This document shows, one piece after another, positions 21,175-43,068 of a DNA stretch of 64,000 nt (positions are counted from its first letter, which is position 1; every line of letters starts with the position of its first letter). Source of the stretch: Sulfurospirillum sp. 1612 (GTDB taxonomy: Bacteria > Campylobacterota > Campylobacteria > Campylobacterales > Sulfurospirillaceae); assembly GCF_036556685.1 (NCBI RefSeq), contig NZ_CP140614.1, forward strand, positions 186,001 through 250,000, given 5' to 3'. The notes beneath the pieces are model-generated. The model worked only from the letters and a program-made list of their open reading frames with translations, made no database searches and had not been told where the DNA came from. A program made the position numbers and the translations under genes.

Positions 21175-22533
21175 TTACTCTGATATAATATGATGTTTGC
21201 GCAAAATATTTCGAAGCGTACTGCGTGAAATATCCAAATATTTTGCCAAATGTGTGATGTTGTCACATTTTTGTAGTAATATGTCATAAAACTCTTTTTC
21301 TAGACTATTGTGAATCTCTTTTGCATTTTCGATACCGCGTATTTCAATCATTTGTGCAATAATCTCTTGGGCGCTGCAATCTTTTGTTTTTTCGATTTCA
21401 AATTGAATATGCTCTTTTTGGATGACATCTTCATGCGCATTGAGGGCTGAGTTATAAACGGTATTTTTTAATTCTCGGATGTTGCCCTTGTAGGTTCGTT
21501 TTTTGAGCAATTCCAATGCGTCATTTGAAATACCTTTGATATTGAGATTGAGTTCAGTGTTGGCTTGCTTGATAAAAAAATCAACCAATGCCGGAATATC
21601 TTTTTTGCGTTGATTGAGTGCGGGTATTTCAATTTTAATCATGGAGAGACGATAGTATAAATCTTGCCTAAAAAGATCCTTCTCGATATTGTCATTGATG
21701 TTGATATTAGTCGCAGAGATAATCCTACCATGAAATTTTATATCATGAGTACCTCCGACACGTCGAAAGGTTTTATTTTCTAAAAATCGAAGCAATTTAC
21801 TTTGTGATTCTGTACTAATCTCTCCGATTTCATCCAAAAATAGCGTGCCATCTCCCACTGATTCTGCAAATCCGATATGTGCCGTTCTCGCATCAGTAAA
21901 AGCGCCTTTTTCATGACCAAAGAGTTGCGATTCAAAGAGTTCTTTGGGAATCGAAGCACAATTGATGGCTAAAATTTCAGATTTTGAATTTCTTGAATTT
22001 TTGTGGATCAGGTTGGCGATGAGCTCCTTTCCTGTGCCGGTATCCCCTAGTATCATGATAGGCAAATCATTGTTAGCCGCTACGCCGATTTTGCTATAGA
22101 TATCCTTCATCGTCTCAAAAGAGCCGACAAATTCTTCATTGATTTGATCTAGTACCTGGATAAAAGCATCATCTTTTTCTTCATATTTTTTGACGATATT
22201 CTTGAGTTCATCGACGGTGAAAGGTTTTTGAAGAATATCTTTGATACCAATTTTTGAGGCTTCAATCATATTCGTAGGGGTGGTATAGGCCGTCATCAAA
22301 ATCGCAGGGAGTGTGATGTTGTGCTGTCTCAAATTTTTTATCAAATCAATACCTGAAAAATCATCCGAGAGCATAATATCTACAATCAAAAGCTGAATCT
22401 GCTCGTCTTTAATGCGCGCAATAATATCAGATTCCAAACCATGGAATAGAACCGTTTCATATTTTGCTCTCTTTAAAATCTTAGAAACAGAATACCGAAT
22501 CTCATCTTGATCGTCTATGATGGCAATCTTCAC
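21175..22533 (-). CDS. NtrC-family sigma-54-dependent response regulator
   Basis: 452 residues: receiver (acidic Asp7-Asp8, acceptor Asp52, KPF switch Lys), AAA+ domain with Walker A GDTGTGKE (163-170), Walker B LFLDE (231-235), and a C-terminal Fis-type helix-turn-helix (LAKYLDISRSTLRNILRKHH). The sigma-54 contact loop reads GAFTDA instead of GAFTGA. GTG start overlapping the kinase stop (GTGA). With kinase and PhnD-like protein it forms a three-gene unit divergent from the ttrBCA-like operon, whose promoter has sigma-54 elements, so activation of that operon is the probable job. The well-known Salmonella TtrR is a different, LuxR/FixJ-type regulator. Confidence 0.92.
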   Translation of the reverse strand: MKIAIIDDQDEIRYSVSKILKRAKYETVLFHGLESDIIARIKDEQIQLLIVDIMLSDDFSGIDLIKNLRQHNITLPAILMTAYTTPTNMIEASKIGIKDILQKPFTVDELKNIVKKYEEKDDAFIQVLDQINEEFVGSFETMKDIYSKIGVAANNDLPIMILGDTGTGKELIANLIHKNSRNSKSEILAINCASIPKELFESQLFGHEKGAFTDARTAHIGFAESVGDGTLFLDEIGEISTESQSKLLRFLENKTFRRVGGTHDIKFHGRIISATNININDNIEKDLFRQDLYYRLSMIKIEIPALNQRKKDIPALVDFFIKQANTELNLNIKGISNDALELLKKRTYKGNIRELKNTVYNSALNAHEDVIQKEHIQFEIEKTKDCSAQEIIAQMIEIRGIENAKEIHNSLEKEFYDILLQKCDNITHLAKYLDISRSTLRNILRKHHIISE

Positions 22534-24200
22534 GATAATTCTCCTTGTGGTAGTTTTATGATAAAGGTCGTCGTATCGTCATCGGCGATGTGAATTTGAC
22601 CTCCTGAGAGATAGACAATCTTATACACCGTAAAAAGTCCCAATCCAGAGCCGTGACTTTTGGTTGTAAAAAAAGGTTTAAAAATTTTCTTTCGCAATGT
22701 TTTTGGTATGCCACATCCACTATCTGTGATTTTGAGTTCACTCATTTGGTTAGGTTTTTTGACCCAACTTATCTCTATATTCCCCTTTTGTTTGATGGCA
22801 TCTATCGCATTATTGATGAGGTTGAGTACAATCATCTCAAAGGAATTTTTACTGATTTTGACATGCAAACCATCTTGGACATACTGTTTTATATGGATGT
22901 GGTGTTCTTGCAGTTTTGGTTGCAAAATAGCCAGCAATTCATCCAAAGATTTTTGAATGGGAAGAGCGACGATATCCCGCTGGTCAATCGGTTTTCCTAA
23001 TGATAAAAAGTCGATAACTTGGGCATCCATACGATTGAGAGTGTTATGAATGATGTGCAAATCCTCTTTATCAATCTCTTCATCTTCTTGGAGTAATAGT
23101 TTTAAAGGTTGCAAAAGATTTTTGATTTCATGCGCAAATAAAGAGCTGATTTCACCCAACGTTTTGAGGGAGTGGAGGATTTTCTCATTTTCTTCTAGCT
23201 TTGAGAGTTGCGTGATGTCAGAAAATGAGATGACAAGGTATTCATTGACCAATTGAATTTGATAATACAATGATAAATCTTCGCCCAAATCATTCGTGAT
23301 TTTTTGTTTACAAAAAGTACATGAGTGATTTTGATAGCATTGAATGAGGTTTGTGATGTATTCGCTTTTAAATTGATTCTCTTCAAGCAACAGTGTGCTG
23401 ATGGGATGTTCGTTTTGATACATGATATTGAGATCTTCATCACAAATGACAATGAAAACATCCACCGATGCCAAGGTGCGTTGGTAAAAGTTTTTGAGTT
23501 CTTCTTCTTTTTTAACCGATTCTTTGATCTCTTTGAGTAAGAGGGTGGTTGTCTTGACAAGATCCGTAATTTCATCATTTTCAACACTTTGTATCTCGCG
23601 TATGTCATCCCACTTTTTCAGCGATATCGCTTTGGTATTATCTCGCAATATATTGAGTCGATCCAGTAGATTTTTCATAAAATAAATGGCAAAAAGAAAT
23701 GAAAAAACAGCTGCAAAGGTCATGATTAAAAAGTTGGTTGAAAAGCTCCTCTCGAGCATATTTTTGATGGAGCTTTTTTCAATATCTAAGACAAAATATC
23801 CCAGCAGTACACCATCTTTTTTGAAAGGAAGTATTTTGTGTTCTTCGGGGTCATCAAGGCGGGTTCCCATCTTGTGACGCGCGGTGTCGGTATGTGCCAA
23901 GACAATAGAGTGCTTATCGATAATACCGGCATCTTTAATAGCACTATTTTGAGAGAAGGATTTGAGAAACTTAAACAAAGCCCACCGGTCATTAGCCAAG
24001 ATGGCACTGGTGAGAAAATCTTTGTTAGATTGGATGTTGCTATCAATCATTTCATTGATGATTTCATTGGTCTGTTTTTTGGACGTATCGATGGCAAGTA
24101 CGACGATGAGAGAAGAGAATATGAAAATAATCATGAAAATCAAAAAAGCCAATTTGGTATAGATGGATTGTGAGTGCAACCAGTGTAAGAGTTTGGTCAT
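22530..24200 (-). CDS. Membrane sensor histidine kinase of the Ttr-like unit, with a Cys-containing PAS-like region
   Basis: 556 residues. Membrane helices at about 17-37 and 153-175 flank a periplasmic Cache-like sensor (SNKDFLTSAILANDRWALFK). A HAMP-like linker and coiled coil lead to a PAS-like domain (about 240-335) with Cys at 288, 294 and 297 (C-x5-C-x2-C). The H-box is LFAHEIKNLLQPL with His357, and the ATPase boxes are NLINNAIDAI, DSGCGIP and GSGLGLFTVY. Start and stop overlap the flanking genes by four bases each. It probably takes one input from the PhnD-like protein and a second from the cytosolic PAS-like region. Confidence 0.88.
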   Translation of the reverse strand: MTKLLHWLHSQSIYTKLAFLIFMIIFIFSSLIVVLAIDTSKKQTNEIINEMIDSNIQSNKDFLTSAILANDRWALFKFLKSFSQNSAIKDAGIIDKHSIVLAHTDTARHKMGTRLDDPEEHKILPFKKDGVLLGYFVLDIEKSSIKNMLERSFSTNFLIMTFAAVFSFLFAIYFMKNLLDRLNILRDNTKAISLKKWDDIREIQSVENDEITDLVKTTTLLLKEIKESVKKEEELKNFYQRTLASVDVFIVICDEDLNIMYQNEHPISTLLLEENQFKSEYITNLIQCYQNHSCTFCKQKITNDLGEDLSLYYQIQLVNEYLVISFSDITQLSKLEENEKILHSLKTLGEISSLFAHEIKNLLQPLKLLLQEDEEIDKEDLHIIHNTLNRMDAQVIDFLSLGKPIDQRDIVALPIQKSLDELLAILQPKLQEHHIHIKQYVQDGLHVKISKNSFEMIVLNLINNAIDAIKQKGNIEISWVKKPNQMSELKITDSGCGIPKTLRKKIFKPFFTTKSHGSGLGLFTVYKIVYLSGGQIHIADDDTTTFIIKLPQGELS

Positions 24201-25063
24201 TTTTTTTCTTTTAATGCATTGAGCATTTTGTAGATATTAGAATAGGTTTGATTGGTTGGCTTCTCAAATCGGTCAATATTGAGATGATTCAAAATTTCTT
24301 TACCGATTTTGGTGTGGTGCATATTTAAAAAGAGGTTTTGAAGTTCTTGAAATTCTCTTTTATTGAGGTTGTTACGCGCTACGATAGGTGAAATGGTATA
24401 GGGGCCCAATTTTTGTACCACTCTTAGATTTTGCATATCTTTGGGGTGTTTTTTGGCATATTGTGTCAAGACCAAACTATCGATACTCGCCCCATCAACA
24501 AATCCATCTAATACCGCTTTTATAGATTCACCATGATCATACGTATAGATAAGATTGCTAAAAAAATTGGTGATTGTGTCTCCGTGCATAAAAATTGTAT
24601 ACGTGGGGGCAATGGAGCCTGAGGTGGAGTCAGGGTCAGTAAACGCAAAGATTTTTCCTTTAAAATCCATAATACTTTTATATTTTGTGCCTTTGAGTGC
24701 AATGATTTCTGAGTAGTATTTGTCCTGACCATTGATAATCGGGATGGCCAATAAATCAGCATTGTCTTTGTCTTTTAATAGGGTATAAGTAGAGCTACAA
24801 ACATAGGCGATATCAGATTTTGCATCTTTTATATTGGAGACGACCTCCGCATAAGTTCGGGCAAATTTAATATCAATTTTAAACTTTGAATTTTGTTCTA
24901 AATATGTTTTCCATTGTAGATAGGTTTTTAAATCTTCTTTGAGTGTAGTGCCGGTAAATGAAAAGGTAATATTTTTAGCATCAAGCGGTAAAAAGAGTGT
25001 AAAAAGCAGTAAAAAAGTGGTAAAAATTTTACCACCGGTGGAAAATTTTTTATCGTTTTTCAT
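24197..25063 (-). CDS. PhnD-like periplasmic binding protein (sensor component of the Ttr-like unit)
   Basis: 288 residues: signal peptide (KIFTTFLLLFTLFLPLDA) and a PhnD/phosphonate-type type-2 periplasmic binding fold, with AYVCSSTYTLL, ALKGTKYKSIMDFKGKIFAFTDPDSTSGSIAPTY and the later DGFVDGASIDSLVL. No ABC permease or ATPase accompanies it. In Salmonella the tetrathionate kinase TtrS carries a PhnD-like sensor as its own N-terminus; here the sensor appears to be a separate gene coupled to the kinase (ATGA overlap). So its ligand is probably the substrate of the divergent reductase, which is inference. Confidence 0.88.
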   Translation of the reverse strand: MKNDKKFSTGGKIFTTFLLLFTLFLPLDAKNITFSFTGTTLKEDLKTYLQWKTYLEQNSKFKIDIKFARTYAEVVSNIKDAKSDIAYVCSSTYTLLKDKDNADLLAIPIINGQDKYYSEIIALKGTKYKSIMDFKGKIFAFTDPDSTSGSIAPTYTIFMHGDTITNFFSNLIYTYDHGESIKAVLDGFVDGASIDSLVLTQYAKKHPKDMQNLRVVQKLGPYTISPIVARNNLNKREFQELQNLFLNMHHTKIGKEILNHLNIDRFEKPTNQTYSNIYKMLNALKEKK

Positions 25064-25120
25064 ATTGTATTTCCTTTAAAAATATACGACAACGCCCAAA
25101 TTGTGGGATTTATAAAAAAC

Positions 25121-25136
25121 TGGAATAGTATTTGCG
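25121..25136 (+). promoter_or_regulatory. Sigma-54 (-24/-12) promoter of the ttrBCA-like operon
   Basis: CTGGAATAGTATTTGC: GG (25122-25123) and GC (25134-25135) are separated by exactly 10 bases, with TTTGC at the -12 end, as sigma-54 needs. The start would be near 25147, leaving a leader of about 60 bases. A small inverted repeat CCCA-N5-TGGG lies at 25095-25107 and might bind the NtrC-type activator encoded next door. The -24 half is imperfect (TGGAAT versus TGGCAC). Confidence 0.65.
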
Positions 25137-25205
25137 CCTATAGAGGTACAAACTGTATGCGTATTATATACATGTAATGTAAAAATCTGCTTTAAAGGAG
25201 TTGCC

Positions 25206-26162
25206 ATGAGCAAAGATGAGCTTCGAAAAGTTGGCGAAACACTGACTTTAGAAACCGATGCGTCTAGGAGAGAATTCTTAGACAAGTTTAGTAAAGGCAT
25301 ATTTGGCGGGTTGATAGCAGGAGGTATTGTCAATGCCCTTGCCCCCACTCAAGCCAAAGCGAGGATGGATGGTAGCAATATCAATTTTTCTACACCATTT
25401 GAATCTTTTGACTTGCCAGAATACCAACCCGGAGAGGATTCTATCCTAAGAATGATGCGTGATCTTCAAAGAGCACTTAAAAAACCAATCGAGCTACGAC
25501 GCTGGAATATGGTGATTGATTTAAGAAAATGTGTCGGTTGTGACGCCTGTTCTGTTTCATGTGCTGCTGAAAATAAACTACCACCAGGGGTGATTTACCG
25601 ACCTGTTATTCAACAAGAAATCGGAACTTATCCCAATGTAGGTCATGTGACACTACCCCGTCCTTGTATGCATTGTGATGAGCCTCCTTGTGTGCCGGTT
25701 TGTCCGGCTGAAGCGACGTGGAAACGTGCCGATGGTATTGTGATTGTTGATTATGACCAATGTATTGGATGTCGGTATTGTTTGACTGCATGTCCTTATG
25801 ATGCGAGAACTTTTGATTTTGGTTTAGAGTACATCGATGATGCCGCAGACGCTCCAAAAGTATTTTTAGGCAAAGATAAAGCAGGCAAATATGAAACGTT
25901 GGCTTCTTATGAATATGCCAAAGAGTGGAAGCGAGAAGGCGAAGAATCACCGATAGGCAACGCGCGAAAATGTCATTTTTGTATCCCTAGAATCGAGAAG
26001 GGGTTGCTTCCTGAGTGCGTTGTGACATGTATTGGACGGGCTACTTATTTTGGCGATGCTAATGATCCAGATAGTTTGGTTTCTGAGCTTGTGGCATTAC
26101 CTAATGCTTTTAGACTCAAAGAAGAGATTGGTACACATCCTAGTGTGTATTATATTAAGTAG
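25206..26162 (+). CDS. ttrB: TtrB-like Tat-exported 4x[4Fe-4S] electron-transfer subunit
   Basis: 318 residues. A twin-arginine signal (SRREFLDKF then a hydrophobic run ending at PTQAKA) precedes a DMSO-reductase-B-type protein with four cluster sites: [35 protein letters not shown] and CHFC...CVVTC. It passes electrons from the membrane subunit to the molybdenum subunit on the periplasmic side. Gene order B-C-A matches tetrathionate reductase of Salmonella and the selenate reductase SrdBCA of Bacillus. AAAGGAG lies five bases before the ATG. Transcription probably starts from the sigma-54 promoter just upstream. Confidence 0.85.
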
Positions 26163-26171
26163 GGGGATGAG

Positions 26172-27341
26172 ATGACAAGAGAAAAAATGGGCAACATCCT
26201 GGTTTGGATTTTAATCATTGGTTTTGGTGCCTGGGGTATGCCTGGTATCATAGATAGATTTACGAATGGACATATTAATACCGCGTATGGTTCTTATATC
26301 CCTTGGGGATTGTGGATTTCATCTTATATTTGGTTGATTGGGTTATCAGCAGGGGCTTTGATGATTTCGGTCATGACCTATGTGTTTGATATCCAAGCTG
26401 TTAAAAAAGTAGGCAAGATGGCGTTTTTGGTAGCCATAGCTACTTTGGTTGGTGCGATGATTTCTGTGGGACTTGATTTGGGTCATCCTTTGCGAGCCTT
26501 CAACCTAATCCTTGATCCAAATCTTCACTCCATGATGGGATGGATGGCGATTTTATATACGGCTTATTTTATAACACTTTGTGTTGAATTGTATTTAGCA
26601 ATCAAAAAAGAGCAAGCACAAGGTGCCAAACAAAAGTCTATCAAAAAGATTTTAATCGTTTTAGGAATTTGGAGTATTCCATTGGCATTTGCGTTCCACG
26701 GAGGTGTGGGTGGTGTTTTTGCTAATGTCATCGCAAAACCGTTCTGGCATGGACCCATGTTACCGGTTGTCTTTTTGGCGGGCGCCTTTTTGAGTGGGGG
26801 TGCACTATTTGCAACCGTCGCTTATATCTGGAGACCCAACCAGTCACAAGAAGAGTTTTCAAAAATGATGATATTTTTGGGAAAAACCACTTTGGCACTT
26901 TTGATTTTAGATGAAATTTTAGAGATTTCAGAAGTGTATATTGGAACTTTTTATGCCGCATTTGGTGAGGGACATATCTGGCAAGAGATTTTGTTCGGAC
27001 CCTATTGGTTTACTTTTTGGGTTGTTCACATCCTCATTGGGGTGTTAATTCCACTGTTTTTACTCACTGTCAAATCAAAATCCCCCGGTGCCATCGCGCT
27101 GGCTGGTTTATTGATTGCGGGTAGTTTCTTGGCGGTGAGACTCAATATCGTAATCCCAGGGATGATTGATCCGGGATTTCAAGGTATCGCTGAAGCTTGG
27201 GTGCATAGCAAATTGACATTCTCATATTTGCCATCAACCATGGAGTGGCAGGTACTGTTCTTTATCGTAGCGGTTGTGATGGCCGTCTTTATGATCGGTA
27301 AAAAACTCTTACCAATATATCAAGTAGCAGGAGAAGAATAA
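26172..27341 (+). CDS. ttrC: NrfD/TtrC-like membrane quinol-oxidising subunit
   Basis: 389 residues with about nine to ten membrane helices and no cofactor motif, typical of NrfD/PsrC proteins, which oxidise menaquinol and anchor the iron-sulfur subunit. Family-like segments include YIPWGLWISSYIWLIGLSAGALMIS, GLDLGHPLRAFNLILDPN and HSMMGWM. It lies between the iron-sulfur subunit (nine bases upstream) and the catalytic subunit, whose ATG overlaps its TAA. It is the probable site where the quinone pool joins the pathway. Confidence 0.85.
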   Translation: MTREKMGNILVWILIIGFGAWGMPGIIDRFTNGHINTAYGSYIPWGLWISSYIWLIGLSAGALMISVMTYVFDIQAVKKVGKMAFLVAIATLVGAMISVGLDLGHPLRAFNLILDPNLHSMMGWMAILYTAYFITLCVELYLAIKKEQAQGAKQKSIKKILIVLGIWSIPLAFAFHGGVGGVFANVIAKPFWHGPMLPVVFLAGAFLSGGALFATVAYIWRPNQSQEEFSKMMIFLGKTTLALLILDEILEISEVYIGTFYAAFGEGHIWQEILFGPYWFTFWVVHILIGVLIPLFLLTVKSKSPGAIALAGLLIAGSFLAVRLNIVIPGMIDPGFQGIAEAWVHSKLTFSYLPSTMEWQVLFFIVAVVMAVFMIGKKLLPIYQVAGEE

Positions 27342-30300
27342 TGAAAAATGAAATTATAGAAAACAAACCCATGGACCGAAGAAGTTTCCTTAAAACTTCA
27401 GCCCTACTTGGTGGTTCTGCCGCATGTTTGGGTGCCGTTGAAAAGATTAATTCACAAGGAACAGGAAGGGGTAAAATCGATTATCCTCTCAATGATGCTG
27501 AGAATGTGATTTATTCTGTCTGTTTGCAGTGTCATACTGCCTGTCCCATCAAGGTCAAAATTGAAGATGGCGTCGCGGTGAAAATCGATGGTAATCCATA
27601 CTCGATACAAAACCTTAACAGCCCGATTCCAACATCCACAGATATCCAAGTGGGTGCGAAGATTGATGCGGGTCTTTGTCCTAAAGGTCAAGCAGGGATT
27701 CAAACGATTTATGACCCATACCGTGTTGTCAAAGTATTAAAAAGAGATGGTAAACGGGGTGAAAATAAATGGAAAGTGATTCCTTTCGATCAAGCGATTA
27801 CTGAAGTCGTTGAGGGAGGAAAACTGTTCTCACACGTACCAGGAGAAGAGAATCGAGTGGTAGAAGGCTTGCGACAAGTGCGTGCCTTGCAAGATGCTAG
27901 CATTGCCAAAGCGATGGCAGCAGATGCGATGAATGTCGGTAAAGGCAAGATGGCATTAGCCGATTTTAAGGCAAAGTACAAAGCACACCTTCATACATTA
28001 ATTGATCCGGACCAGCCCGATCTTGGACCCAAAAATAACCAATTTGTCATGTTGGCAGGAAGAATGGAACACGGACGAAAAGAACTGGCAAAAAGATGGC
28101 AAAAAGGCTCTTTTGGAAGTATCAACTTTATGGAGCATACTACCGTTTGTGAGCAATCTCACCATATCGCCTATAAACAAGTCACCAGCCAATATTTAGG
28201 CAAAGGCAAATGGAAACCAGCAGCAGAGCATCTAAAACCCGATTTTAGAAATGCCAGATTTGTTATCTTTTTTGGAACGGGCTTTGTGGAAGCAAACTTT
28301 GGACCTCCAATCATGGCCAACTTAGTCACCAATTCCGTGACGCATGAAGGTTGTAAAGTCGCAGTAGTCGATCCTAGATTTTCAAAAAGTGCGGCTAAAG
28401 CATGGCAATGGGTTCCCGTACGCCCTGGTGGTGATGCTGCCTTGATTTATGCGATGATTAGATGGATGTTTGAAAATGACAAGATTAATAAAGAATTTTT
28501 GGCCAATGCCAATAAAGCCGCGGCAAAAAATGCGAATGAAGAGAGTTGGACGAGCGCGACACACTTAGTGGCATTTGATAAAGAGGGACCGGGCAAAAAA
28601 CTAAGAGCCAGTGATATTGGCATCGGAACCAGTGATGAGTTTGTCACGACCAAAGATGGAAAGCCCGTGGCCGTTAATACCAACGACAAGCTCAATCCAA
28701 TCGTTGGAGATCTCTTCTTCTCAGGTGAGCTTGGGGGTATCAAAGTCAAATCAGAATTGATGATGGTAAAAGAGTATGCCATGAGCAAATCTATGGAAGA
28801 GTGGGCAAAAGAGGCCGGTCTTAGTGTGAAAGAGATTGTAAAATTAACGAGAGAATATACAAAATACGGCCGACAAGCCGGAGCGGAGATGTACCGAGGT
28901 CCGGTGCAACACACCAATGGATATTATAATGGAATGGCCGTTATTTATCTCAATATGTTGATTGGAAATATCGATTATAACGGGGGTTTGATTAAAGGGG
29001 GTGGACATTACCACGAAGATGGTAGTAAAGGTGGTCCTTTTAATCTTAAAGTAGATGCATATCCGGGAAAAACCAAAGCGTTTGGACACAAAATAACCCG
29101 CGAGGGCTCTTATTATGAGCATAGCAGTTATTTCCAAAAATACGGCTATCCTGCCAAACGACCGTGGTTCCCACATACAGGAAATGTCTATCAAGAAGCA
29201 ATTCCTTCTATGGATGATGCCTACCCTTATAGCGTCAAGATTTTGATGACGATTATGGGGACACCGCTTCTGTCAAATCCGGCAGCACAAATGTCAATGC
29301 AGACCATTCTTGATCTGAAAAAGACGCCACTGTATATTGCTAATGATGTAGCGATTGGTGAAAGTAGTATGTTTGCTGATTATATCTTTCCGGATGAAGC
29401 GATTTGGGAACGATGGGGAAGCCCACATGTGCCACCATCTGCGGTGACGAAAATGTCAAAATTTAGACAACCAACCATCGAGCCATTGACCGATGTCGTG
29501 AGTGTTTTTGGTGAAAAACAACATATCGGTTATGAATCCATGCTTTTAGCGATGGCTGAAAAACTAGGACTTCCAGGATTTGGAGATGATGGTTTTGGCA
29601 AAGGTATTCCCTTCAAAAGAACGGAAGATTGGTATCTCAAATTGGCCGCAAATATTGCAGCAGGGGATCACAAGGGGGATGATTTACCAGAAGCAGATGA
29701 TAGAGAGATTGCAATTTTCAAAAAAGCACGACGTCATATGAGTTCGGCAACCTTTGATTTTGCACGATGGGAAAAAGCTTGTATTGATGCCAATGGTAAA
29801 AATTGGTTCAAAAAGACCATTTACCTCCTCAACCGTGGTGCTCGTGGTGAGGATTTCACAAAATATACCAAAAATGTGGCAAATAGTGATAAGATATTGC
29901 ATAAATTTGGCAAAATGTTTAATTTCTACTGCGAAAATGTTGCCAATACACGACACTGTTATACCGGTAAAAAGTTTGGTGGCATTAGTCAATTTAACAA
30001 AGCCGTGGATTATACGGGTAAAGAAGTCGTGGGAAGCAGTGCCTATCCACTTCGCTCTATCACTTATAAACCGATAACCGGAGGTCAAGCAAGAACGCAA
30101 TCTGTGGATTACTGGTTGCAAGCGATAATGCCTGAAAATACTATCGACATCAATGCCCAAACTGCCTCAGATATGGGATTAAGAGATGGTGATATGGCAA
30201 AAATCGTCTCAGCGGACAATCCAAGTGGTAACTGGGATTTGGGACCATCAGGTAAAAAGCCAATGATCGGTAAAATTAGAGCGATTGAAGGCCTAAAACC

Positions 30301-30523
30301 TGGTGTCATCAGCGTCTCTTGGAGTTTTGGTCACTGGGCATATGGTGCCAGAGATATCATGGTAGATGGTACTGTTATCAAAGGGGAAAAAGCCAGAGAG
30401 AGCGGTTTGTGTTCTAATGCCGCATTGACGGTGGATAGCGGACTCAAAAATTCTACTTTAGAAGATATGATCGGCGGGTCAGCTGTGTTCTATGATTCAT
30501 TTGTAGGACTTGAAAAAGTGTGA
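27341..30523 (+). CDS. ttrA: TtrA-like molybdopterin oxidoreductase, catalytic subunit (tetrathionate/selenate/related)
   Basis: 1060 residues, close to Salmonella TtrA (about 1020). Tat signal MDRRSFLKTSALLGG. The [4Fe-4S] site is C61-x2-C64-x3-C68 with C113 (LCPKG). The probable molybdenum ligand is Cys270 in EHTTVCEQSHH. The C-terminal molybdopterin-dinucleotide-binding domain (from about residue 910) holds INAQTASDMGLRDGDMAKI. It would reduce a sulfur or oxyanion substrate in the periplasm with quinol electrons. Relatives use tetrathionate, thiosulfate, selenate or arsenate; the PhnD/kinase neighbours favour tetrathionate, but the substrate is not proven. A hairpin follows seven bases after the stop. 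Confidence 0.82.
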   Translation: MKNEIIENKPMDRRSFLKTSALLGGSAACLGAVEKINSQGTGRGKIDYPLNDAENVIYSVCLQCHTACPIKVKIEDGVAVKIDGNPYSIQNLNSPIPTSTDIQVGAKIDAGLCPKGQAGIQTIYDPYRVVKVLKRDGKRGENKWKVIPFDQAITEVVEGGKLFSHVPGEENRVVEGLRQVRALQDASIAKAMAADAMNVGKGKMALADFKAKYKAHLHTLIDPDQPDLGPKNNQFVMLAGRMEHGRKELAKRWQKGSFGSINFMEHTTVCEQSHHIAYKQVTSQYLGKGKWKPAAEHLKPDFRNARFVIFFGTGFVEANFGPPIMANLVTNSVTHEGCKVAVVDPRFSKSAAKAWQWVPVRPGGDAALIYAMIRWMFENDKINKEFLANANKAAAKNANEESWTSATHLVAFDKEGPGKKLRASDIGIGTSDEFVTTKDGKPVAVNTNDKLNPIVGDLFFSGELGGIKVKSELMMVKEYAMSKSMEEWAKEAGLSVKEIVKLTREYTKYGRQAGAEMYRGPVQHTNGYYNGMAVIYLNMLIGNIDYNGGLIKGGGHYHEDGSKGGPFNLKVDAYPGKTKAFGHKITREGSYYEHSSYFQKYGYPAKRPWFPHTGNVYQEAIPSMDDAYPYSVKILMTIMGTPLLSNPAAQMSMQTILDLKKTPLYIANDVAIGESSMFADYIFPDEAIWERWGSPHVPPSAVTKMSKFRQPTIEPLTDVVSVFGEKQHIGYESMLLAMAEKLGLPGFGDDGFGKGIPFKRTEDWYLKLAANIAAGDHKGDDLPEADDREIAIFKKARRHMSSATFDFARWEKACIDANGKNWFKKTIYLLNRGARGEDFTKYTKNVANSDKILHKFGKMFNFYCENVANTRHCYTGKKFGGISQFNKAVDYTGKEVVGSSAYPLRSITYKPITGGQARTQSVDYWLQAIMPENTIDINAQTASDMGLRDGDMAKIVSADNPSGNWDLGPSGKKPMIGKIRAIEGLKPGVISVSWSFGHWAYGARDIMVDGTVIKGEKARESGLCSNAALTVDSGLKNSTLEDMIGGSAVFYDSFVGLEKV

Positions 30524-30529
30524 CAGTGT

Positions 30530-30561
30530 GAACCCGTCAAGGAAACATCCTTGGCGGGTTC
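30530..30561 (+). terminator. Strong hairpin after ttrA (attenuator-like)
   Basis: GAACCCGTCAAGGA and TCCTTGGCGGGTTC pair over 14 positions with one T-G wobble and an AACA loop. No T-run follows (CATTGTATCA), so it may only reduce read-through, or protect the ttrBCA message from 3' decay. A small exported protein gene lies 24 bases beyond it on the same strand. Confidence 0.55.
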
Positions 30562-30584
30562 ATTGTATCATGAGAGGGGTGATG

Positions 30585-30872
30585 ATGCGAGGTAGATTAT
30601 GGTGTGCGGTTTTTATGGCTATCATGATAGGTTCTGTTGCGCCAGCACATGAGAGAGATGTGTTCGAAGATATCATGAAGCCCAGTATTGTACGCTACTA
30701 TAAAAATCAAAAAGTAATATTTTTATTTTTTCAAAAAATGGAAAATGGAAATTATTATGCCATCATAAAAACGAAACATTTACAAGAGTGTCTTACCTTA
30801 GATAAAACCGGCAAGATATTAAGTGTCATGGAAGATTTGAATGCACTTGATGAGGTAGAAGAGGGCTGTTAA
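30585..30872 (+). CDS. Small exported protein of unknown function after ttrA
   Basis: 95 residues from the ATG at 30585, five bases after AGAGGGG; a tandem ATG lies three bases earlier. The N-terminus is a signal peptide (MRGRLWCAVFMAIMIGSVAPAH-like region, residues 1-22). The mature part of about 73 residues is compact, with two Cys (in QECLTL and at the C-terminal end, EEGC) that could form a disulfide. I do not recognise a family. Its place in the same direction behind ttrA suggests a periplasmic accessory factor. A longer frame from 30510 would run through the hairpin and ttrA stop and is unlikely. Confidence 0.55.
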   Translation: MRGRLWCAVFMAIMIGSVAPAHERDVFEDIMKPSIVRYYKNQKVIFLFFQKMENGNYYAIIKTKHLQECLTLDKTGKILSVMEDLNALDEVEEGC

Positions 30873-36991: not shown

Positions 36992-37615
36992 ATGGCAAAA
37001 AAAACAAGGAATACGACGGTTTCTAAGAAGCTTATTTTGGAAAATGCCATAAAACTTTTCTCTACTAAAGGCTATGGGTCAAGTTCAATGGAAGAATTAG
37101 CCACCATGTGCGGCTTAAACAAAGCGATGATTTTTTACTATTTTAAGAACAAACAAGGGTTGTATGATGCGGTCATTGAGATGGTAATCGATGAAATCTA
37201 CCAAACCGTACATCATGATGAAGAAAAAGTGCAAGACCCTATGGCTGAGCTTGAGTATTTTATCAAAACGTACGCCTCTTTTGCCTGTGTGCATCCCTAT
37301 TTACCGGCACTATTGCTTAGAGAGTTGAGTGCTAGTGGTGCGGCGATTTCAGAAAAACTATTTTTTAAAATGAGAAAATTATTTGTGCATTTTAGTGATA
37401 TTTTGAGGCGGGGAGAAGAAGAAGGGATATTTAAAGATGCCATCCCTATGGTGTTGTATTTTATGGTTCTTGGGACGATTAATCTCATCATCACGACCAA
37501 ACCGCTGAGAATAAAAGCACAGGAAATCGAAGGCATTGATACCTGTGCCCAATGCGATATTAATGATATGTCTGAGTATTTAGTAAAAAAAATAAAAAAA
37601 ATGTTAAAGGAGTAG
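36992..37615 (+). CDS. TetR-family regulator of the RND efflux operon
   Basis: 207 residues. The N-terminal helix-turn-helix is classical TetR (KLILENAIKLFSTKGYGSSSMEELATMCGLNKAMIFYYFKNKQGLYDAV, residues 12-60 in segments), and the C-terminal ligand-binding part is helical with an ALLLRELSASGAAISE stretch and a Cys pair near the end (DTCAQCDIND, C-x2-C) that is unusual and might sense thiols or metal. It is the first gene of the pump operon, three bases ahead of the TolC gene, and an operator covers its promoter. So it probably represses the pump and itself. Confidence 0.88.
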   Translation: MAKKTRNTTVSKKLILENAIKLFSTKGYGSSSMEELATMCGLNKAMIFYYFKNKQGLYDAVIEMVIDEIYQTVHHDEEKVQDPMAELEYFIKTYASFACVHPYLPALLLRELSASGAAISEKLFFKMRKLFVHFSDILRRGEEEGIFKDAIPMVLYFMVLGTINLIITTKPLRIKAQEIEGIDTCAQCDINDMSEYLVKKIKKMLKE

Positions 37616-37617
37616 CC

Positions 37618-38898
37618 ATGAAGAGATTCTTTCTCCTGCTTTTTGTCGTGGCAGTGATAGATTTGCAAGCTGTGACCATGTCGGATTTGTTTCATGCTAT
37701 CAAGCAACAACCCTCCAGCCAACTCGATAGTATTCGCACCAAAATGGCTCAAATAGGCAAAGATCAGGTGCGTGCCAACTATTTTCCAGTCGTGAATGGA
37801 TTTGCAGCGTACACACACTACAATTCGCCCACGAATATGAAACCGCTCGATCCTCTCAATGCCGCAAAATTGATGGGTGACAATAAATCGATTCCCTTTG
37901 CTAAAACCATCCAAAAATTTGGAGTGCATCTCAGTGTGCCACTTTTTGTCAAAGAGTTGAGTGATTTAAGCCACAAAGCAGCCTATCTGTTAAAAAGTGC
38001 CAAATTAAGAAAAAAACTAAATTTTTATCAAAATGAAGCGTTAGTCTTAGGGGCCAATGCCAATTTACAATATTTACAAAATCTCACACAAGCTCTAGAG
38101 GCGACTAAGCGATCGTTAATGAGCACCAAAAAGACGCTTGAAGTTTCTGTCAATTCCGGACGAACGCCTGCGATTGCCCTCGATAAGCTTGATGAAAAAC
38201 TCAATCAACTTGATATTGCTCTTAATAATGTCGCCATCAAAAGTTTACAAATCCGAGGAAGTATCGAAAATCTCACCGGGATAACACTCAAAGATGCCGT
38301 ACCGATGGAATCGATTGCAACGGTACAAAAGCATGAACTCTATGCGCTCAAACCTTTGCAAGAAGCCATTCATGCATCGCAAAGTGATTTAAAAGCAGCC
38401 CAAGCAAAACGTTACTATCCAAAGGTCACCCTAAGCGGTTTGTGGAGTGAAAATTATGCGCCTCATGATGTTTTCAAAAACGATAGCGTGCATACTGGCT
38501 ATGGATATTACGAATTGGGAGTTTCATTGCCACTGTACAATAAAAACGGAGATGTTGCTGTGGAGATGAAGCAGGTTGCTATTTTAAAAGAGAAGATGCA
38601 ATTAGCTAAAACTAAAAATGCGTTGCAGATTGAAGCAAAAGAGTTAGAAAACAATTTGGTATTACTCAAACGCTCCCAAAAGCTCAATCGTCTCAATATC
38701 CAAAAACGCAAAGCCCTATTGCAGTATGCCAAAGTAGCCTACCAAGAGGGACGGATGATTGAAGAAGATTATCTCAATTATGAGGACAAACTACTGAGTG
38801 CGAAAGCGAGTTATTTTGAAACGATTTCTCAAGAGTGGCAAAGCAGAGCAAAACTTGCAGTGCTTTATGGAAATGATTTAAAAGGAATAGTCAGATGA
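37618..38898 (+). CDS. TolC-family outer-membrane efflux protein (RND pump)
   Basis: 426 residues: signal peptide (KRFFLLLFVVAVIDLQA), then the two-fold repeated TolC layout with long helices (EALVLGANANLQYLQNLTQAL; NALQIEAKELENNLVLLKRSQKLN) and short outer-membrane strands (FAAYTHYNSP; SGLWSENYAP). It starts three bases after the TetR gene and its TGA overlaps the adaptor's ATG. It forms the outer-membrane duct of the RND system. Confidence 0.88.
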   Translation: MKRFFLLLFVVAVIDLQAVTMSDLFHAIKQQPSSQLDSIRTKMAQIGKDQVRANYFPVVNGFAAYTHYNSPTNMKPLDPLNAAKLMGDNKSIPFAKTIQKFGVHLSVPLFVKELSDLSHKAAYLLKSAKLRKKLNFYQNEALVLGANANLQYLQNLTQALEATKRSLMSTKKTLEVSVNSGRTPAIALDKLDEKLNQLDIALNNVAIKSLQIRGSIENLTGITLKDAVPMESIATVQKHELYALKPLQEAIHASQSDLKAAQAKRYYPKVTLSGLWSENYAPHDVFKNDSVHTGYGYYELGVSLPLYNKNGDVAVEMKQVAILKEKMQLAKTKNALQIEAKELENNLVLLKRSQKLNRLNIQKRKALLQYAKVAYQEGRMIEEDYLNYEDKLLSAKASYFETISQEWQSRAKLAVLYGNDLKGIVR

Positions 38899-39980
38899 AA
38901 AAGTTATTAAGATATGGAATCATATTGGTGGTGATTGCCATCATTGTAGTGCTTGGCATGCGTGTGATTAAGGCAAAACGAGCGGATGAGGCCAAGTTGC
39001 CCCTTGCTGTGAATTATGATATGCTAATCAAAACAATTTCTCCCACGCCCAAAGAGGTCACTTTGAGTTTGCCGTATTTAGCCTTGACAAAAAGCAATGA
39101 TGATGTCAAGATTAGTTCTCGCATCAGCGGTCGGATTCAATCAATCGTCAAAAGCGGCAGCATTGTCAAAAAAGGTGATACCATCCTGAAAATCGACGAT
39201 CAAGAGTTAAAGACCCAGCGCAAAAGTATTAATTTAAATATTGACACCTTGAAATCTCAATACCACGCAAAAAAAGTAGCATTAAAAAATCTTGAAGAGT
39301 CACACCAAAGAACTCAAAAACTTTTAGCCGTTAAAGGGGCATCAAAAGAGGCTTTTGACAAAGAAGTGAGCAATATTGTGGCAACAAAATCTGCACTTGA
39401 TGCTCTCAAATTTAAAATTCAAGAGTTACAATCTAGTCGGGCATCAATCGATAACATGCTCTCTTATGCGACGATAAAATCGCCCATTGATGGTATCGTG
39501 ACCAAGTTAGCCAACATCGGTGATGTGGCATTTATGGGAAAACCGTTGATTAGTATCAGTGCGAAATCTAGTAGTTATCTGTTGGTGCGTTTACCCAGTG
39601 ATATTAAGCCAAAGGCGATTATTTACAATAAAAAGAGTTATCCGCTTAGTGCATTAAACACGACGGACAATGGACTATTAGAGTATTTGGCCAATATTGA
39701 TGCGCATGTTGTGAGTAATCAAAGTGTGAATATCGATGTGGTTATCTTTCATGATAAAGGCATACTACTGCCTCATGATGCGATTTTAAATCGCAACGGT
39801 CACAGTGCGGTTTTAGTATTAAAAAATCACAAAGCCATCGCCAAAAACGTCATGATTTTAGCCAATGGTGAACAGGGTGTCATCGTCGATGGAGTACATC
39901 ATGATGAGAAAATTATCGTAGCCAAACAAGATATCTTGCTGAAGCTTTTAGGCGGTGTGAACGCACGAGCAGAAAAATAA
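38895..39980 (+). CDS. RND efflux periplasmic adaptor
   Basis: 361 residues: one N-terminal membrane anchor (about 7-25), lipoyl half site (SSRISGRIQSIVKSGSIVKKGDTILKI in parts), a coiled-coil hairpin (about 105-180, including SHQRTQKLLAVKGASKEAFD), a second lipoyl half (ATIKSPIDGIVTKLANIGD) and a barrel domain. This is the membrane-fusion protein between the RND transporter and the TolC protein. Start overlaps the TolC stop (ATGA). It lacks a lipoprotein Cys, so it is anchored by its helix. Confidence 0.88.
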   Translation: MKKLLRYGIILVVIAIIVVLGMRVIKAKRADEAKLPLAVNYDMLIKTISPTPKEVTLSLPYLALTKSNDDVKISSRISGRIQSIVKSGSIVKKGDTILKIDDQELKTQRKSINLNIDTLKSQYHAKKVALKNLEESHQRTQKLLAVKGASKEAFDKEVSNIVATKSALDALKFKIQELQSSRASIDNMLSYATIKSPIDGIVTKLANIGDVAFMGKPLISISAKSSSYLLVRLPSDIKPKAIIYNKKSYPLSALNTTDNGLLEYLANIDAHVVSNQSVNIDVVIFHDKGILLPHDAILNRNGHSAVLVLKNHKAIAKNVMILANGEQGVIVDGVHHDEKIIVAKQDILLKLLGGVNARAEK

Positions 39981-39987
39981 AGGATTT

Positions 39988-42900
39988 ATGATGATATTTG
40001 AATATTTTTATAAAAGACCGTATCTGCTTTATAGCATCATTTTTGGTTTTTTTATTATGGGTATCGTAGGGCTGGCCACTTTGCCAAAAAATCTCTTCCC
40101 TGATGCCAATCCTGCCAAGATTGTTGTCATCACCAAAGTACCCGGTGCGACAGCAAAAGTAGTGGCAAGTACGGTTTCAAAACCTATCGAAGAGGAACTC
40201 TCGCGCTTAGGTGAAGTGAGTGATGTGAGCAGTGTCAATGTGGCGAATATGTCTGTTGTGAGTGTGGAATTTGGATACAAAAAGAGTCTCAATAATGCCG
40301 CCGTTGAAGTAGCCAATGCCCTCAATATCGCCAAAGCTAAAATTCCATCGGGTTTAAATCCTGCCATTTATGAAGCAGGAGATTTTACGCTTCCTGTCGA
40401 TGTGATTGCGCTGAGTCCCAAAAATAAATCCATCACACTGGGTGAAATTAGAAAGATTGCCGATAGTTTTATAAAACCACGTCTTTTAAGCAACGAAAAA
40501 ATTGGTAATGTTGAGGTGTTTGGTGGATATGAGAGTGCTATTAATGTGGAAATCGACCCTTTTAAAGCTAAAAAATATGGCGTTGATTTTGCGACTATTG
40601 CGAAAGTAATCGCCGCACAAAACAAAGATATCCCCGTAGGTTTTATCAAAGGCAATGATAGTTTTTATACGGTGACCATTTATGGTGAAAAAGATAATGT
40701 TTTAAATTTAGAAAATCTTCTCATTAAACCTAATGTGAGATTAAAAGATATTGCGACGGTCAAATGGGGACATCAAAAACGAACCAGCGGTTATATCGGA
40801 AATGGTAAGCAAGCAATCGCACTGGCGATTCAAAGAGCACCCGGTGGTAGTGTGCTTGATGTGAGCAAAGCCGCACGGGCACAGATGGCTAAACTTGAAG
40901 TCAAATATCCTAATATTAACTTTGAAATCAGTGATACCCAAAGAGATTTGATTGAACAAGCCAATAGCAATATGCTCGATGCCCTCAAAGATGCAGTGAT
41001 TTATACTTTGCTTGTGATTATGCTATTTTTGGGTAATTTTAGAGCTATCATTGCAGCGGGTCTTTCGATTCCGATGGTATTTTTCTCCACCATTGCTGTT
41101 ATTTGGTTGATGGGAGGAGAGTTAAATATCGTGATTTATACTGCGATTATTTTAGCCCTAGGGATGCTCACCGATGATGCGGTGGTAGTGTTAGAAAATA
41201 TCGAGCGGCATTTGGTTGAGGGGAAGGAAAACCTGCAAGAGGCCATCAAACATGGAACCAAAGAGGTTTTAAGCCCCGTCTTTGCAGGAACCTTTGCTAC
41301 GGTGGCGATTATGTTTCCTTTGATGTTTGTAGGGGGATATCCTCAAAAGATATTTAAACCTTTGATTGAGACCTTAATCATCGCCTTGATTATCAGCTAC
41401 TTTTTATCCATCACTTTTATCCCGCTATTATCGGCGTGGCTGTACAAAAATGGCACCAAAAAGACAAAAATTGAGAATGCATTTGAGTGGTTTTATCAAC
41501 ACAGTGTTGGAAAGTTGGTCAAGCCCTATGAAGGCATTATAAAATTCTCAAACAATGGTTGGAAAATCGCACGGCGTGTGATTTTGACGATGGGTGTGGT
41601 GATGTTTTTAGTCTTTAGTATGAAAAATATTATGCCAACAATCGGGAAAGATGCGATGCCTCCGATGGATACGGGTATCTTAAAAGCTCAAATCACCTTT
41701 AGTGCTAATAGCACCGTCGATGATGCTGAAAGCAAGCTCACTCCTTTTCTCAAATGGCTCAATAAACAACCCTGGAATATTCGCAGTTCCATCGCTTTTG
41801 GGACAGAACCGGGTGTGTTGAGCTTAGGAAGTGGGAATCTTCCAACTGAGGCGACCATCACCATCAATGCCATCAACCGCTTTGATCGTAAAAAGACACT
41901 GTGGGATCTTGAAAACAGTGTGAGAAAACAACTCTCATTAATCCCAGGAATCAAGAGAAATGATGTGTTTGATTTTGGTGCGACACCACTCTCAAGCATC
42001 AAAGCAACCGTGGATACAAGAATCACAGCTCCAACACTCGATGGTATGGCGCCGTATTCTAAAAAAGTAGCGGGGGCCCTCAAACAGGTTCGAGGATTGA
42101 CCTCAGTGTCGACAAGTTGGGGTAAAGATTTTACCGAATACATCATTGATGTGAATCGCAACAAAGCCTTGCGCTATGGTATTACGCCGTTAAATGTTGC
42201 CATGCAAATTCCAATCAAAGGCGAAATCGTCTCATTTGATGCCAACTTAGAATCGATGAATACGCAGTTTGTGAGACTCTATCTCAAAGATCGCTTTACC
42301 AAAAATCTTGAGACATTAAAATTATTGCCGATTACAACAAAATTTGGCAATATTCCGCTTTCTCAAATAGCGACGATTAAAAAAAGTTTGACCTATGCAA
42401 AGATTGAGCGCGATAAGATGCAATACGCTCTTGATGTCAATGGATACCGCGCTAAAAGACCGGTGACACATCTCACCGATGATACTGTCACCGCACTAAA
42501 AAGTGTCAAATCTGATGCCTTCACTCTGACACAAACGGGAACCATTGCCACGATTAATGATAGTTTTAATCGTATGTTTAAAGCCATCGGTTTGGGTGTC
42601 GTGTTGTTGATTATTAGTTTGATAGCGATTTATCGATCGATTCGTATGGCTTTAATCATGATACTCGTATTGCCCCTCTCTTTGATAGGTGCTTCATGGG
42701 GAATGCTGCTATTTGATAAGCCAAGTTGTATGCCAAGTTTGCTGGGAATCTTACTGCTTTTTGGGATTATCATCAAAAATGCGGTCTTGCTCATCGACTT
42801 TTATCAAGCCAATAAAGCCAAGGGAGAGAGTCCTTTTCAAAGTGCGATTGATAGTGTTACTGTGCGATTTCGTCCGGTTATGATGACTGCTTTTGGTACG

Positions 42901-43068
42901 ATTGCGGGGATGATTCCGATTGCGTTAGAGCAAGCAGTAGGCTTAGAGCGGTTGAGTCCTCTAGCAGATGTAGCGATTGGAGGACTTTTGATTGGGACAT
43001 TGTTGACACTGATTTATGTACCAATATATGCTTATATATTTGATAATAAAAAATCAAAAAAGGAGTAA
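39988..43068 (+). CDS. RND-family efflux transporter (AcrB/HAE-1-like)
   Basis: 1026 residues, the normal size. It has twelve expected membrane helices in two pseudo-repeats with large periplasmic loops. The proton-relay helix 4 contains ALGMLTDDAVVVLENIERH with the Asp-Asp pair, and the second half ends with RPVMMTAFGTIAGMIPIAL and ERLSPLADVAIGG. The loops match drug exporters better than heavy-metal exporters, since no Met-rich metal motif is seen. It forms a proton-driven tripartite pump with the preceding adaptor and TolC protein. Substrate unknown; downstream rhodanese and TSUP genes hint at sulfur compounds. Confidence 0.9.
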   Translation: MMIFEYFYKRPYLLYSIIFGFFIMGIVGLATLPKNLFPDANPAKIVVITKVPGATAKVVASTVSKPIEEELSRLGEVSDVSSVNVANMSVVSVEFGYKKSLNNAAVEVANALNIAKAKIPSGLNPAIYEAGDFTLPVDVIALSPKNKSITLGEIRKIADSFIKPRLLSNEKIGNVEVFGGYESAINVEIDPFKAKKYGVDFATIAKVIAAQNKDIPVGFIKGNDSFYTVTIYGEKDNVLNLENLLIKPNVRLKDIATVKWGHQKRTSGYIGNGKQAIALAIQRAPGGSVLDVSKAARAQMAKLEVKYPNINFEISDTQRDLIEQANSNMLDALKDAVIYTLLVIMLFLGNFRAIIAAGLSIPMVFFSTIAVIWLMGGELNIVIYTAIILALGMLTDDAVVVLENIERHLVEGKENLQEAIKHGTKEVLSPVFAGTFATVAIMFPLMFVGGYPQKIFKPLIETLIIALIISYFLSITFIPLLSAWLYKNGTKKTKIENAFEWFYQHSVGKLVKPYEGIIKFSNNGWKIARRVILTMGVVMFLVFSMKNIMPTIGKDAMPPMDTGILKAQITFSANSTVDDAESKLTPFLKWLNKQPWNIRSSIAFGTEPGVLSLGSGNLPTEATITINAINRFDRKKTLWDLENSVRKQLSLIPGIKRNDVFDFGATPLSSIKATVDTRITAPTLDGMAPYSKKVAGALKQVRGLTSVSTSWGKDFTEYIIDVNRNKALRYGITPLNVAMQIPIKGEIVSFDANLESMNTQFVRLYLKDRFTKNLETLKLLPITTKFGNIPLSQIATIKKSLTYAKIERDKMQYALDVNGYRAKRPVTHLTDDTVTALKSVKSDAFTLTQTGTIATINDSFNRMFKAIGLGVVLLIISLIAIYRSIRMALIMILVLPLSLIGASWGMLLFDKPSCMPSLLGILLLFGIIIKNAVLLIDFYQANKAKGESPFQSAIDSVTVRFRPVMMTAFGTIAGMIPIALEQAVGLERLSPLADVAIGGLLIGTLLTLIYVPIYAYIFDNKKSKKE

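Follow-up and report, generated by a model that had tools for sequence, protein, structure and literature searches.

The locus lies within a window of 64,000 nucleotides, which spans positions 186001–250000 of the single-contig 2.38 Mb genome of Sulfurospirillum sp. 1612. On the reverse strand, R (21175–22533) encodes an NtrC-type response regulator that contains a receiver domain, an AAA+ domain with a GAFTDA loop and a Fis-type HTH (Pfam receiver, Sigma54_activat and HTH_8), S (22530–24200) encodes a membrane sensor histidine kinase (Pfam HATPase_c), and X (24197–25063) encodes a periplasmic PhnD-like sensor (Pfam Phosphonate-bd), which is assigned to the AioX/ArrX/ArxX subfamily by its PDB matches, pocket and phylogeny. 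The three genes are joined by 4-base overlaps and are divergent from B, C and A on the forward strand. B (25206–26162) is the Fe-S subunit, which matches Fer4 families and has a Tat-like signal as judged by eye; its top family models are TtrB and DsrO, both scoring below cut-off. C (26172–27341) is an NrfD-type membrane subunit (PF03916), and A (27341–30523), as indicated by family models and phylogeny, is the molybdopterin catalytic subunit, with TVCEQSHHIA as the presumed Mo-Cys loop. The initial annotation had described this arrangement of six genes, and both the coordinates and the Pfam domains agree with it.

A scan of the contigs of named genomes recovered 13 loci with an A subunit 80–89% identical to that of the window, all of which are titled Campylobacterota metagenome bins; we refer to them as vent-type, a label that is our reading of their probable origin. 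A class-wide search for relatives of A returned solely TtrA proteins at 30–35% identity, and plasmid searches yielded reference sequences and no close relative of A. R-S-X and B-C-A are divergent in every vent-type locus of sufficient length, with a nearly constant gap between X and B, and S is present in all loci that reach that far. The six-gene set, for which a genome comparison had been proposed, is accordingly kept in these relatives. In L038 (3845–7733), R, S and X are each interrupted by a stop or frame change, which represents decay or assembly error.

One or two small, probably exported proteins are encoded 3´ of A (window 30510–30872, forward strand; L048:13246–13808; L042:10139–10999). 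The window ORF has no family match among the Pfam and NCBIfam models, and its counterparts, 36–52% identical, are placed after A in many vent-type loci. In L042–L044, the small exported protein or proteins are followed by another small protein, in which a CHGK heme-type motif occurs. A set of TetR, TolC-like, membrane-fusion and RND pump genes lies a few kb past the operon (window 36992–43068; L041:7593–11449; L048:15192–21283).

The intergenic region between X and B

A sigma-54 promoter core for B-C-A (TGGAATAGTATTTGC, TGG-N8-TTGC) is located at 25121–25135 on the forward strand. The motif is too weak as single-sequence evidence, with 21 matches of the pattern in the 64-kb window against 10.5 expected, and conservation was used instead. 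TGG and TTGC are invariant in all 11 aligned intergenic regions, and sigma-54 sites of equal geometry precede arrC in relatives, which makes the element credible and bears out the earlier proposal of a sigma-54 element (TGG-N10-GC, 25121–25136) ahead of B-C-A. The AAA+ domain of R contains a Walker A motif and a GAFTGA-type loop that reads GAFTDA. RpoN is encoded once in the genome, and the clear sigma-54 activators number two: R itself and a FlgR-like protein, which has the GAFTDA loop as well.

Upstream of the promoter core, a dyad at 25095–25107 (CCCAAATTGTGGG, CCCA-N5-TGGG; no strand assigned) is proposed as the operator of R, based on its recurrence in relatives and in arr operons. In most relatives some 19 bases separate the dyad centre from TGG. 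The layout is shared by the arr intergenic regions, where a CCCTA-TAGGG-like dyad stands 17–19 bases upstream of a TTGGCAC-type sigma-54 site. Compared with shuffled upstream sequences, the dyad has a combined p of 2e-10 over 19 sequences, which are related and not independent, and about 6 of the 19 are without a perfect dyad at the expected spot. The combined pattern of dyad and sigma-54 site occurs twice genome-wide, once at the window locus. On the other side, ATTATATAC is invariant in 11/11 intergenic regions and reads TATAAT on the opposite strand (25163–25168, reverse), which is likely the sigma-70 –10 box of X-S-R.

The X-S-R sensory system and its neighbours

The best PDB matches of X are ArrX (E=2.7e-36) and AioX. 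The binding pocket of AioX consists of Tyr88, Cys106, Tyr131, Ser161, Ser163, His192 and Asp210 (AioX numbering; Badilla et al., PMC5908839), and the window X keeps all seven residues. The pocket is equally complete in nine vent-type X proteins and in the relatives linked to arr or aio genes, as far as these were read in the correct frame; X of L107 enters the X tree only. A Sulfuricella protein has Thr at position 163, and in the transport-type PhnD relatives of the phylum position 106 is Gly or Asn and position 210 is Asn or Ser. Two TtrS proteins align weakly to X, and the better, profile-based alignment reveals none of the aligned pocket positions kept. In the X tree, the window protein falls inside a Campylobacterota arsenic group (support 100/99), apart from the transport PhnD proteins, and is placed beside the arr-linked cluster with a pairing support of 95/78. 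X had initially been interpreted as a sensor split off from TtrS, a reading that we reject in view of the pocket residues and phylogeny.

X, S and R genes occur together in the window and its relatives, and their sequences place the three proteins almost certainly within the arsenic XSR family (AioXSR/ArxXSR/ArrXSR). An AAA+ domain is present in AioR and ArxR and absent from ArrR of Chrysiogenes (PMC5908839), so that R, being of sigma-54 type, matches the Aio and Arx branches of this design. AioX, ArxX and ArrX are reported to bind arsenite or arsenate, but none of tetrathionate, thiosulfate and selenate (PMC5908839). Together with the ArrX and AioX matches, the complete pocket and the position in the X tree, this argues that the signal of X is very probably arsenic.

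Among 298 genomes of the class searched, the closest X proteins (about 50–52% identical) are found in eight genomes of the same family (L107–L114), in which XSR is divergent from an arrCAB operon with an ArrA-sized catalytic subunit; the one such subunit tested scores 1088 bits as ArrA. R is 53–55% identical to the regulator beside arrCAB, and several of these loci contain aioBA on the other side. XSR is divergent from aioBA in L115 and is accompanied by arrCAB and ars genes in L116. Some vent-type relatives possess a second XSR set, which is divergent from aioBA where the flank is visible (L147, L148 and L150) and is adjoined by arsRBC in L147. In G307, contig L047 carries a second set, of aio type, immediately after A. 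In G299, a second set starts downstream of A (L039), and a further contig, L147, which we infer to join onto L039, carries the remainder of S2 along with X2, aioBA and arsRBC. An arsB gene is located near R in L048. The operon of the window has no ars genes beside it, which counts against an arsenic reading; the arsRBC genes of this genome lie about 2 Mb away.

Subunit A and the canonical TtrA clade

A scores 460 bits against the NCBIfam TtrA model NF011567, below the cut-off of 1750, which is strict, as the other TtrA of this genome (955) and the Azospirillum TtrA (1191) also fall below it. Against the ArrA model A reaches 129 bits (cut-off 1600), and its branch is separate from ArrA. In the enzyme tree, which was built without SrdA, Pyrobaculum or Melioribacter sequences, the canonical TtrAs form a clade (100/100) that is joined next by a Citrobacter ars-island enzyme (100/99). 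The clade of the window A branches deeper (82/77 versus haloarchaeal enzymes), still among the TtrA-type enzymes; it is separate from the Arr, Arx and Psr-like proteins. This grouping, the B-C-A order and the Tat-like signal seen by eye on B agree with the TtrA/SrdA/archaeal or alternative arsenate reductase lineage defined by Wells et al. (PMC7331816, PMC10100899), and A is assigned from its sequence to a deep branch of that lineage, outside the canonical TtrA clade. The label ttrBCA-like in the initial annotation holds for the gene order and the lineage and fails for canonical TtrA itself, given the score and the position in the tree.

The active-site motifs also differ. Canonical TtrAs have CGxxxR at the presumed Mo-Cys and are without a Gly-Arg pair, whereas ArrA and ArxA contain Gly-Arg 28 positions before the presumed Mo-Cys. 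The Arg of this pair is, we assume, a contact of arsenate in ArrA; a literature check for the ArrA active-site residue numbers was without result. The clade of the window A and the Citrobacter enzyme combine Gly-Arg with CExSHHIA, and the corresponding ArxA loop is CESSKKVG. A is ArxA-like in its Gly-Arg and CExS[HK][HK] loop, unlike TtrA.

At 428851 of the same chromosome lies a further, ordinary ttrBCA operon, served by a two-component system of its own; genes for an OmpR-like regulator and for a kinase that has no PhnD-like domain stand before it (L051:8791–16276). The proposal that the locus places the same kind of respiration, on tetrathionate, under sigma-54 control is not supported, given this second operon and the arsenic XSR family of X, S and R. 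What stands of the altered regulatory design is a sigma-54 promoter conserved in front of B-C-A, an activator of NtrC type, a membrane-bound kinase and a PhnD-like protein encoded by its own gene, rather than a divided TtrS or a transfer of tetrathionate respiration to sigma-54.

TtrA-like B-C-A genes are found in other settings as well. On a Citrobacter freundii plasmid (NZ_CP024882.1; L071:8019–13414), they lie between ars genes, with a hypothetical gene after them, and encode the CExSHHIA loop; this enzyme is a candidate for the basis of arsenate growth without ArrA in Citrobacter. Similar ars-flanked sets occur on Salmonella and E. coli plasmids. Two haloarchaeal plasmids (L072 and L155) carry TtrA-like B-C-A-TorD beside a bacterio-opsin-activator-type regulator, and their enzymes branch deeply and separately within this lineage.

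Proposed function and comparison with known systems

We propose that X-S-R would be expressed at a basal level from the divergent sigma-70 promoter suggested by the conserved TATAAT, and that periplasmic X, as its family and pocket predict, would bind an arsenic oxyanion and signal to S, which would phosphorylate R. R may then bind the dyad and drive sigma-54 RNA polymerase at the conserved core. A and B would be exported by Tat, C would hand quinol electrons to them, and A would reduce As(V) to As(III), to be dealt with by the arsRBC products encoded elsewhere in the genome.

A lies outside the ArrA/ArxA branch, so that the argument for its substrate comes from its regulation and gene neighbourhood. 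In addition to the features of X, the nearest X, S and R genes flank arrCAB in eight genomes with a shared dyad and sigma-54 layout, and an aio-type second XSR beside A (G307 and G299) and arsB near R (L048) point in the same direction. Together with the ArxA-like motifs and the precedent of Melioribacter roseus, these features suggest that A is probably an arsenate reductase. Neither ArrA nor AioA is matched above the cut-offs in the window genome, and a strong ArrA match is missing from ten related genomes (best 181 bits), a weak absence as the bins are possibly incomplete; these observations argue for replacement of ArrAB. It is probable, as far as sequences can tell, that A is an alternative arsenate reductase of the TtrA family, controlled by an arsenic XSR system and used in place of ArrAB. 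With more moderate confidence, we suggest that closely related bacteria have coupled a single arsenic-sensing regulator, complete with operator and sigma-54 promoter, to two distantly related molybdoenzymes, ArrCAB in certain genomes and the deep TtrA-family B-C-A in the rest. The second of these would constitute a new class of bacterial respiratory arsenate reductase, substituting for ArrAB.

The B-C-A order, TtrA as the best family model and the abundance of sulfur at vents would also suit a second tetrathionate or polythionate reductase whose arsenic-family sensor was recruited to read a sulfur oxyanion, a version of the idea in the initial annotation. We consider it quite improbable, as X keeps the full arsenic pocket, A is without the CGxxxR loop of TtrAs, arsenic genes are neighbours in relatives and a conventional, separately regulated ttrBCA is present elsewhere on the chromosome. 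It is also unlikely that A reduces a different oxyanion (selenate or antimonate, for example) under an XSR sensor that is either matched to this substrate or broadly specific: SrdA, a selenate reductase, belongs to the same lineage (PMC7331816) and this enzyme family often shifts substrate, but selenate is not bound by the characterized AioX-family sensors (PMC5908839) and it is arr, aio and ars genes that are linked to these sets in relatives.

If A ran in the opposite direction, as an arsenite oxidase analogous to Arx, this would account for the ArxA-like CExS[HK][HK] loop and for the arx layout, in which XSR is likewise divergent from B-C-A-D (PMC6549141). We consider this improbable, since A falls outside the Arr/Arx branch, some relatives already have aioBA under a separate XSR, and the described enzymes of the TtrA lineage are reductases (PMC7331816, PMC10100899).

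If the arsenate reductase reading holds, arsenate respiration of this lineage would be missed in surveys, which commonly rely on arrA, and filed under tetrathionate. Some cultured arsenate respirers are without arrA, and for two of these, Pyrobaculum aerophilum and Melioribacter roseus, suspicion has fallen on a TtrA-type enzyme (PMC9751042, PMC7331816, PMC5492636). Comparative genomics here yields a specific candidate enzyme along with the sensor, promoter and putative operator that belong to it, and whether some TtrA-like enzymes are arsenate reductases becomes directly testable.

Among known systems, the XSR-arrCAB loci of the same-family Campylobacterota (L107–L114) resemble the window in divergent layout and in dyad and sigma-54 geometry, and differ in controlling ArrCAB, whose catalytic subunit matches A at about 20–23% identity, and along parts of the sequence only. 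AioXSR-aioBA of Pseudorhizobium NT-26 and ArxXSR-arx of Azoarcus KH32C, the latter also divergent, share a separate PhnD-like sensor, a kinase and a sigma-54 activator with the window; their enzymes are AioBA or Arx, X is about 27% and R 28–31% identical. Salmonella-type TtrSR-ttrBCA has the same B-C-A order and enzyme lineage, but its PhnD-like domain is within TtrS and without the pocket, TtrR is not a sigma-54 activator, and A is 27% identical.

A non-Arr, TtrA-like, arsenate-induced enzyme tied to arsenate respiration is known from the archaeon Pyrobaculum aerophilum; the likeness is drawn from its description as cited in PMC9751042 and PMC7331816. The Melioribacter roseus ttr locus, as described in PMC5492636, comes from another phylum and places a TtrA-type enzyme beside a PhnD-like protein, a kinase and a regulator ('ArrTSR') and arsRPCB, a pairing of sensor and enzyme that we liken to the window by description. 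According to the same study, the ttrA transcript was higher on arsenate, an increase that is not statistically secure, and the authors regarded the enzyme as a possible auxiliary arsenate reductase. This looser case is one published precedent for coupling a TtrA-type enzyme to an arsenic-type sensor. The present locus goes further: the set is conserved family-wide in Campylobacterota, its operator and promoter are arranged as in true arr operons, ArrAB is apparently replaced, and the regulator is of the sigma-54 class.
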